The notes under the pieces were generated by a model. It did no database searches and had not been told where the DNA came from. It worked only from the letters and a program-made list of their open reading frames with translations. Positions 6,915 to 63,105 of a stretch of DNA of 64,000 nucleotides are shown here, piece by piece (the stretch's first letter is position 1; each line of letters opens with the position of its first letter). The DNA comes from Pectinatus haikarae (GTDB taxonomy: Bacteria > Bacillota > Negativicutes > Selenomonadales > Selenomonadaceae). The stretch lies in contig NZ_WIQM01000008.1 of assembly GCF_015732185.1 (NCBI RefSeq), forward strand, positions 496,001 through 560,000, written 5' to 3'. The position numbers were made by a program, and so were the translations under genes.

Positions 6915-7215
6915 ATAAAGCATACGAAAAATGCGTTGCAAAGGAATAGTAATACCTGCAAAAACTACCAGAGAGTTGCTGTGCGGTGAAAAGCAATAGT
7001 CTGACCAGGTATGAACTCGCCTTGAAGCAGCTGGCTGAAATGATACAGAGTAGGTGCAGACGGGGATCCGGCCGTTAAAACGGAAAGATATAACATCACG
7101 TTTTTAGTGATGCGTATCTGTAAAAGTGCATACCGTTTTTTTACGGTGTGAATTTGAGTGGTACCGCGAAAGCATAGCCTTTCGTCTCTTGCAAAGAGAC
7201 GAAAGGCTTTTTTAT
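6915..7215 (+). ncRNA. T-box leader, leucine specifier, upstream of leuA
   Basis: tRNA-sensing leader. The T-box core TGGTACCGCG is at 7159-7168 and is followed by the terminator hairpin AGCCTTTCGTCTCTT / AAGAGACGAAAGGCT with U run (7176-7215). In Stem I a perfect stem ATACCTG (6952-6958) / CAGGTAT (7006-7012) stands above the specifier loop, which reads GAA-CTC-G; the CTC at 7016-7018 is a Leu codon. The stem tip contains GGTGAAAAGC, matching the usual GGTG-AAGC loop. TGGT in the bulge pairs with discriminator A, as in tRNA-Leu. Uncharged tRNA-Leu should permit leuA expression. Confidence 0.92.
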
Positions 7216-9301: not shown

Positions 9302-9606
9302 GAATGATATAGCATTTTAGTGCTTATAGAACAATAAAATATATCCACAATAAATTTTATGAAGAGAAAGAGTATGTGCTCATTCGTTTCCCAGAGAGTC
9401 AGCGGCCGGTGCAAGCTGATAAACGAATTTTTACAGAAAATCATCTCTGAAAAGCAATGCTGAAAAAAGTAAGCAAAGACGTCTTTCCCACGTTACAGGG
9501 AACGCGTATGTCAGTACGTTGTGAGTGCATTTATCGTCAGTGATAAATGAATCAGGGTGGTATCGCGGAAAAATCCGTCCCTTTCTTTGGGGGACGGATT
9601 TTGTTG
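9302..9606 (+). ncRNA. T-box leader, isoleucine specifier
   Basis: T-box core AGGGTGGTATCGCGG at 9554-9568, then terminator AATCCGTCCC / GGGACGGATT (9572-9600) with a short U-rich tail. In Stem I, ATTCGTTT and AAACGAAT pair, with the family tip sequence GGCCGGTGCAAGCTG between them. The specifier loop reads GAAA-ATC-A with ATC (Ile) at 9440-9442, in the same frame as in the well-studied glyQS leader (GAAA-GGC-A). TGGT matches discriminator A of tRNA-Ile. It controls the PanS-like transporter and ilvD. Confidence 0.9.
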
Positions 9607-12472: not shown

Positions 12473-12605
12473 ATAAATGGAGACGTAATTCAGACGGCGT
12501 TTTGACGCCGCCTGAATAGTAGTCGAAATCATCCGGGGACTTAGCCGTTCTTTACTCACCGCTTGCAGAAGCGGGAGTATCAGAGCGGGTTAGTCATCGG
12601 ATAAA
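12473..12605 (+). repeat. structured interspersed repeat, copy 1 (full length)
   Basis: A 133-bp element found again at 37415-37546 (about 80-85 percent identical by eye) and in reduced form at 19402-19476 and 47768-47833. It starts ATAAATGGAGAC and ends CATCGGATAAA. First half: hairpin CAG-A-CGGCG / CGCCG-C-CTG with loop TTTTGA. Second half: long imperfect hairpin closed by ATCCG/CGGAT and GACT/AGTC, continued by AGCC/GGTT, topped by TACTC-a-CCGCTT-gcag-AAGCGG-GAGTA. It has no open frame and no terminal repeats. It lies between the ilvD terminator and the mrp gene. Between it and mrp (12606-12788) I see only an extended -10 (TGATATAAT near 12672). Confidence 0.85.
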
Positions 12606-19401: not shown

Positions 19402-19476
19402 ATAAATGGAGACTTAATTCAGATGGCATTTTGACGCCGCCTCAATAGTAGTAGAGCGACTAAATCATCGGATAAA
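19402..19476 (+). repeat. structured interspersed repeat, copy 2 (internal deletion)
   Basis: 75-bp copy beginning ATAAATGGAGAC and ending CATCGGATAAA like the full copies. It keeps the first hairpin (with mismatches: CAGATGGCA against CGCCGCCTC) and AATAGTAG, but lacks nearly all of the second hairpin. It lies on the plus strand although both neighbouring genes are on the minus strand. Confidence 0.8.
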
Positions 19477-37414: not shown

Positions 37415-37546
37415 ATAAATGGAGACTTAATTCAGACGGCGTTTTGACACCGCCTGAATAGTAGCCAAATTTATCCAGGGTCTTAGCCGCTCTTTACTCA
37501 TCGCTTGCAGAAGCGGGAGTATTAGATGGGTTAGTCATCGGATAAA
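37415..37546 (+). repeat. structured interspersed repeat, copy 3 (full length)
   Basis: 132 bp, beginning 4 nt after the purB stop. Same two hairpins as copy 1. In the apical stem TCGCTT replaces CCGCTT opposite AAGCGG, turning a C-G into a U-G pair and so keeping the helix. In hairpin 1 one pair is lost (CGGCG opposite CACCG). It lies upstream of purA. The remaining 37547-37615 contains a small GTGACG/CGTCAC hairpin next to the purA ribosome site. Confidence 0.85.
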
Positions 37547-47767: not shown

Positions 47768-47833
47768 ATGACCCGCTCTGGAGCCCGCGCTTGTAAAAGC
47801 ACTAAGTTCCGAGCGGGTTACTCATCATATAAA
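47768..47833 (+). repeat. diverged half-copy of the structured repeat (copy 4)
   Basis: Aligns with the second half of copies 1 and 3, ending GAGCGGGTTACTCATCATATAAA (split: GAGCGGGTTA and CTCATCATATAAA) against GAGCGGGTTA and GTCATCGGATAAA. It forms a stem ACCCGCTC / GAGCGGGT with inner GGA / TCC and an apical GCTT-GTAA-AAGC, the same plan as the full copies although many bases differ. It lies between rplI and lonC; no T run follows, so it is not a normal terminator. Confidence 0.6.
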
Positions 47834-58559: not shown

Positions 58560-58788
58560 AAAGTTCAAATAGAAGCTGAGCAATGAACAAGACAGTATGT
58601 TGTGTTGCTTTTTCAGAGAAACGGCGGGTGGTGTGAGCCGCAAAAGCAATTCAGCAGAAAGCTACTTGTGAGCTGTCAATGAAAATTGACCGTTTTGTCT
58701 GCGATATCGGACATGAAGTGAGCATATGCTAACTAAGGTGGTACCACGGGAACAATGTCCTCGTCCTTTTCGGACGGGGCTTTTTTTT
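58560..58788 (+). ncRNA. T-box leader, alanine specifier, upstream of alaR-alaT
   Basis: Core AAGGTGGTACCACGG at 58735-58749, then terminator GTCCTCGTCC / GGACGGGGC with eight T. Stem I: base AGCT-CAAG / CTTG-AGCT, upper stem TTGCTTTT / AAAAGCAA extended by TGTTG / CAGCA, and a tip with GGTGGTGTGAGC. The specifier loop reads GAAA-GCT-A, GCT (Ala) at 58661-58663. TGGT fits discriminator A of tRNA-Ala. It predicts expression of the two genes on alanine shortage. Confidence 0.9.
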
Positions 58789-62854: not shown

Positions 62855-62905
62855 AAAAAAGCGCACTCCGACAAGGAATGCGCATAGAAAGCCTATTGCC
62901 CCCGT
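62855..62905 (-). promoter_or_regulatory. attenuator-like leader of panC, possibly a pan-type RNA
   Basis: On the minus strand a terminator GCGCATTCC / GGAGTGCGC, loop TTGTC, six U (62855-62860), stands 56 nt before the panC ATG. Directly upstream GCA-A-TAG / CTATGC can pair with a bulged A, and would compete with the terminator because CTATGC overlaps its first bases; CCGA further upstream could pair with TCGG in its loop. No promoter is clear. The bulged A recalls the pan RNA motif found before panB, panC and panD genes, but I cannot confirm the match. Confidence 0.5.
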
Positions 62906-63105
62906 CTCGGTCATAGTGATCCAAGCGATATAAATAATATAACAAAACAGCTTATATCGTGATACAGTTCAATATGATACTGTTCATTCAAATGTTTGTT
63001 ACGGATTTATAATAGCATAGATAAGCAGACAGCACAATAAAATTACTATATAGATACACTGGACGCATAAAATTTAATATTTTTTATAAATAGAAGTAAG
63101 TAATG

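Follow-up and report, generated by a model that had tools for sequence, protein, structure and literature searches.

The window analysed here, a stretch of 64,000 nucleotides of the Pectinatus haikarae genome, contains three copies of a repeat. Two full copies had been described in a sequence-only reading of the window, and both were present at 12473-12605 and 37415-37546 with the ends given for them. They are 133 bp and 132 bp long, respectively, and 90% identical from end to end (E = 1.1e-45). The genome search proposed in that reading revealed a third, shortened copy at 19402-19476. It lies near a response-regulator gene and was detected by covariance model R1 with 33.5 bits (E 1.6e-5). The following features were assigned:

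12473..12605, plus strand: full copy 1, between ilvD and the gene of an Mrp/NBP35-type P-loop NTPase; 129.7 bits with model R1
12473..12477, plus strand: left ATAAA of copy 1, the target-derived copy in the proposed model
12482..12524, plus strand: hairpin H1 of copy 1, with foot GAC...GTC and loop TTTT
12528..12532, plus strand: central motif of copy 1, ATCAT, decayed from the consensus TTTAT
12531..12602, plus strand: hairpin H2 of copy 1 with its inner variable hairpin and the family-conserved T.T and G.G mismatches
12601..12605, plus strand: right terminal ATAAA of copy 1
37415..37546, plus strand: full copy 2, between purB (end 37410) and purA (start 37616); 116.0 bits with model R1
37470..37474, plus strand: central TTTAT of copy 2
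37542..37546, plus strand: right terminal ATAAA of copy 2
19402..19476, plus strand: shortened copy 3, which retains H1 and both ATAAA ends and has lost most of H2
47770..47833, plus strand: possible decayed relic of H2 (GACCCGCTC...GAGCGGGTTACTCATCATATAAA), a weak match (E 0.12)

An Rfam scan, also proposed beforehand, assigned the element to no family and gave only scores at chance level. Elsewhere in the window Rfam models matched a pan motif (62898-62986, minus strand) and three T-box leaders (6927-7192, 9350-9585 and 58574-58771, plus strand). The earlier statement that the element has neither an open frame nor a T run holds, and a terminator was rejected for want of the T run.

The element follows the plan ATAAA, hairpin H1, TTTAT, hairpin H2, ATCGGATAAA. 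H1 has the foot GACT...AGTC and a TTTT loop. H2 has the foot GACTTA...TTAGTC, an inner hairpin of variable sequence and two conserved mismatch positions, T.T and G.G. A terminal inverted repeat had been denied before. This is correct for a classical one, but ATAAA stands in direct orientation at both ends, and the hairpins share the foot GACTTA...TTAGTC, which lies a few bases inside the element ends. In some copies (L099, L335) H1 extends to a perfect palindrome in which the left ATAAA pairs with the central TTTAT. Thus, the central motif can pair with either end. Another small palindrome (GCCTGTGCCCTTTGGGTATA) is nested in H2 of five copies from Sporomusa and a Negativicutes metagenome-assembled genome (L045, L070, L099, L104, L118).

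As RNA, copies 1 and 2 were predicted to fold with -62 and -46.8 kcal/mol (z = -8.0 and -5.4, respectively), and none of 200 dinucleotide shuffles was as low as the real copies. The exchange of a C-G for a U-G pair noted between the two copies (CACCGCTT to CATCGCTT opposite AAGCGG) was found as quoted. The suggested covariation test was performed on 73 copies from different genomes, chosen by model score or DNA similarity and not by exact end. Paired cells amounted to 91.5%, and compensatory changes on both sides were observed in 33 of the 45 pairs. The covariation score was 0.275; shuffles gave 0.105 and slid partners about 0.06 or less. The alignment used is fitted to the model and therefore biased towards it. 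A MAFFT alignment of 35 copies agreed more weakly (0.180 versus 0.110). The repeat thus represents a genuine family whose fold is conserved. In well-paired columns G-U combinations outnumbered A-C combinations by 60 to 38. This modest excess would fit some selection at the RNA level and does not settle the choice between RNA and DNA; for a DNA hairpin that is read by a recombinase one would expect conserved folding just as much.

The home assembly (3.1 Mb, 17 contigs) carries about 26 copies. About 15 of them are full copies with 87-100% identity to the query, and about 11 are shortened. The shortened copies have common breakpoints at short internal direct repeats (GACTTA; GGGAGT; TAGTC), and nearly all of them keep ATAAA at both ends. 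Internal deletions thus preserve the ends, and from their breakpoints the shortened copies look like products of slippage or recombination between hairpin feet. Relative to co-directional neighbouring genes the home copies favour the sense strand by 12 to 2 (p = 0.013). In four other genomes of the genus no DNA match was obtained at E ≤ 0.001, and the covariance model gave one weak match in one of the four. At the orthologous purB-purA site of the congener G001 (L176, around position 2010) a different single-hairpin sequence, TTTATCCAATGACTTAGC...GCTAAGTCCTCTGGATAA, was observed, which is apparently distantly related, with one hairpin and in reverse orientation.

A search with the exact 19-base right end retrieved 98 stretches from various Bacillota, among them Sporomusa, Desulfosporosinus, Pelosinus, Massilibacillus, Clostridium ragsdalei and Syntrophomonadaceae. 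A covariance model built from 35 copies, with matches counted at E ≤ 1e-4, gave 43 positive genomes among 398 from the phylum and 56 among 300 from the class. The occurrence is patchy among close species, and no fixed gene context was apparent. Copy numbers reached at least 137 in Sporomusa malonica and at least 148 in Desulfosporosinus sp. PR, in each case out of 150 candidates scored. Several genomes had about 130 or more positives among the 150 candidates scored, so these numbers are lower bounds which the true ones may exceed. Plasmid and phage collections yielded no meaningful relatives; one viral contig matched. Four of the copies read, all from Clostridium ragsdalei (L046, L047, L078, L092), contain just the right module inside a larger repeat of about 280 bp, the ends of which are inverted and lie near AAGGCATTTNAAAGAA. 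They were left out as simple members.

Nearly all copies are bounded by ATAAA on both sides, and for five insertions an orthologous site lacking the element was identified. The purB-purA site is empty in G002 and G004, and so are the orthologues in G004 of two further sites (L003 and L023); a fourth empty site was found by comparison of L070 with L129. In the fifth case (L117) the element interrupts a terminator-like hairpin, which is intact at the orthologous site L315. When the flanks of L117 were rejoined with one ATAAA, a 12-bp stem (AACAGAGATAAA/TTTATCTCTGTT) was restored with -19.8 kcal/mol, compared with -10.9 kcal/mol without ATAAA. The rejoined stem fits exactly one ATAAA, and thus the target most likely held one. 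Most of these comparisons involve species of about 80% identity, and the one resolved to the base, L117, was deduced from the palindrome. Tandem copies have one ATAAA in common. The base before the left ATAAA and the bases after the right one are not conserved. Outside the home genome the TAA of the left ATAAA often serves as the stop codon of the upstream gene, and opposing genes enter the right end for 12-16 bases before reaching new stop codons. The element inserts at ATAAA; the word on both sides of the copies and the single one in the rebuilt L117 site fit a duplication and an element-borne ATAAA alike.

The closed genome G584 contains about 20 simple copies and about 20 near-identical composites (contig C1, L337-L344). 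In the composites the inner hairpin loop of H2 is occupied by a second repeat (about 100 nt; ATAAGTGAGCC...GTTAACGAG), and in a few cases the insert is about twice that length. H2 thus tolerates cargo. Of 19 composite copies, 16 lie on the same strand. Since about 20 near-identical composites are present, element and cargo were multiplied together, and this joint multiplication is consistent with the ends, rather than the inner loop, being recognised. From copy positions and skew, 14 of 22 simple copies were co-oriented with replication, which is not significant. The region around the replication terminus (C1, 1.49-2.85 Mb; 1.35 Mb) contains none of 41 copies, for which the chance is about 3e-6 under a uniform distribution.

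No copy bearing a gene was detected among 223 distinct left-hairpin matches or 40 scored places in G584, and the largest span between ends was about 330 nt. Of the 223 matches, 95 had no nearby right end; most of these represent the palindrome read on its reverse strand or carry a variant right end. At the loci read, neither the interval between the ends nor the sequence beside them contained a dedicated transposase gene. In 46 genomes searched for Y1 genes, element ends were not found around the fetched Y1 loci. Moreover, the element-rich genomes G536, G466, G300 and G323 had no Y1 match, and element-free genomes often possess Y1 genes. A Y1 transposase was rejected as partner, given that no fetched locus was flanked by the element and the two did not co-occur. 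The home genome itself contains three IS200-type Y1 transposase genes (157 aa, equal scores) on contigs C1 and C3 (L139-L141). Y1 genes the size of RAYTs (250-300 aa) are numerous in Sporomusa genomes (L145-L168), and several are flanked by short inverted repeats of their own (GGGGTCAGGCTTGAGTT, GGGACAGG, GGGGACGGTTCT) that are unrelated to the element. The foot GTTAGTC had suggested an integron attC site. The attC consensus is GTTRRRY; the foot does not match it, and this candidate was dropped.

The sequence-only reading had favoured an RNA family over a transposon, and while its observation of the repeat was confirmed, its interpretation is only partly supported. If selection on the RNA fold maintained the repeat as a dispersed small RNA or mRNA processing element, this would agree with the strong covariation, the very stable predicted fold, the modest G-U excess and the sense bias in the home genome. 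In contrast, outside the home genome no orientation preference was observed (26 to 23). Genomes carry from tens to more than 140 copies, congeners hold no clear copy, and orthologous sites lack the element. The absence of a sense bias elsewhere, the patchiness among close species without fixed gene context, the insertion junctions at ATAAA and the multiplied cargo in H2 together make a conserved regulatory RNA very unlikely. Transcripts that run through the element would nevertheless contain strong hairpins, which could lead to their processing or stabilisation. We consider it highly probable that the family is a non-autonomous mobile palindromic DNA element of the MITE/REP type, which inserts at ATAAA and is moved by a putative enzyme acting in trans. 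Against this mobile element speak the lack of an autonomous copy or a dedicated transposase gene among the loci read, the sense lean in the home genome, the modest G-U excess and the resolution to the base of just one empty site.

The nature of the mobilising enzyme was considered separately. Movement of an IS200/IS605 derivative or a REP/BIME on single-stranded DNA by a Y1 HUH transposase (TnpA or RAYT) in trans would account for subterminal hairpins with a common foot at both ends, for the missing terminal inverted repeat and for insertion beside a fixed AT-rich word that is also the end of the element. The central TTTAT could pair with either end in a guide-like manner, and Y1 genes are common in Sporomusa. 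Such a route is rather doubtful, because none of the inspected Y1 loci was flanked by the element, some element-rich genomes had no Y1 match while element-free genomes often have Y1 genes, the replication bias in G584 was not significant and the hairpin foot lacks a GTAG/GTGG tag. Descent from a DDE insertion sequence as a classical MITE, with a 5-bp target duplication of ATAAA and short imperfect terminal inverted repeats (nGGAGACTTA / CCGATGACTAA), appears unlikely. The direct ATAAA at both ends and the imperfect inverted GACTTA motifs 9-10 bases from either end point to it, but these repeats are imperfect and short, the near invariance of the duplicated word is unusual for a DDE target, and among the fetched loci no parent insertion sequence with such ends was seen. 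Tentatively, a phylum-wide superfamily of gene-less paired-hairpin elements inserting at ATAAA/TTTAT is also conceivable. It would include bcr1, and its mover would be neither a Y1 nor an IS-encoded DDE transposase but perhaps a host chromosomal recombinase.

In the preferred model of a mobile DNA element, insertion would take place at a pre-existing ATAAA and leave ATAAA on either side. The hairpins would form in DNA and serve as the recognition structure for the enzyme supplied in trans, and the central TTTAT, which can pair with either end, may align the ends with the target. Compatible routes would be single-strand transposition, site-specific recombination through a circular intermediate, and a DDE enzyme that duplicates 5 bp. 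Effects on neighbouring transcripts, such as new stop codons, RNase III sites or altered mRNA stability, would be side effects.

The closest of the known systems is bcr1 of the Bacillus cereus group (with bcr2 and bcr3; group A repeats), an intergenic, mostly chromosomal repeat of about 147-167 bp. It occurs in 11 to 130 copies, has a stem-loop structure and is MITE-like, and its mobility is tied to repeated TTTAT motifs (PMC6542083, PMC2267715, PMC3446304). Descriptions of the bcr elements confine them to the B. cereus group. The present element resembles bcr1 in size, intergenic location, copy number and stem-loops, in the ATAAA/TTTAT words, here at both ends and in the middle, and in insertion polymorphism at conserved intergenic sites. 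It differs in that the family spans Negativicutes and Clostridia-type Bacillota. Compared by description, the element may be called bcr1-like in how it works, which is not a claim of membership. With REP/BIME sequences and their RAYT (TnpA-REP) enzymes it shares high-copy intergenic palindromes, a two-hairpin unit and a patchy distribution (PMC6006769). In contrast to these, it is about 130 bp long with defined ATAAA junctions, no RAYT gene flanked by the element was present among the fetched loci, and the bases 5' of the hairpin feet vary (TGGA, GTAA, GAA, CAGG) instead of forming the tetranucleotide GT[AG]G. Hairpins near both ends, the absence of terminal inverted repeats and insertion beside a fixed short word are reminiscent of IS200/IS605. 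However, the element has no link to tnpA and no significant replication-strand bias in the closed genome G584, and an IS200/IS605 parent with tnpA and the ends of the element was not seen among the sampled genomes. Like the MITEs ERIC, NEMIS, RUP and EFAR (PMC3733652), it is non-coding, falls within 70-300 bp, folds stably as a transcript and is located beside genes. Unlike them it has a nearly invariant target word and no clear terminal inverted repeats; instead of repeats of 15-30 bp there are just imperfect GACTTA motifs near the ends.

If this interpretation is true, what has been described as a private repeat of the B. cereus group would become part of a class of mobile hairpins that share a defined target word and possibly extend across the Bacillota. 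It poses the direct question of which enzyme moves such hairpins. Furthermore, strong covariation is no proof of RNA function, because the DNA hairpins of mobile elements covary too.
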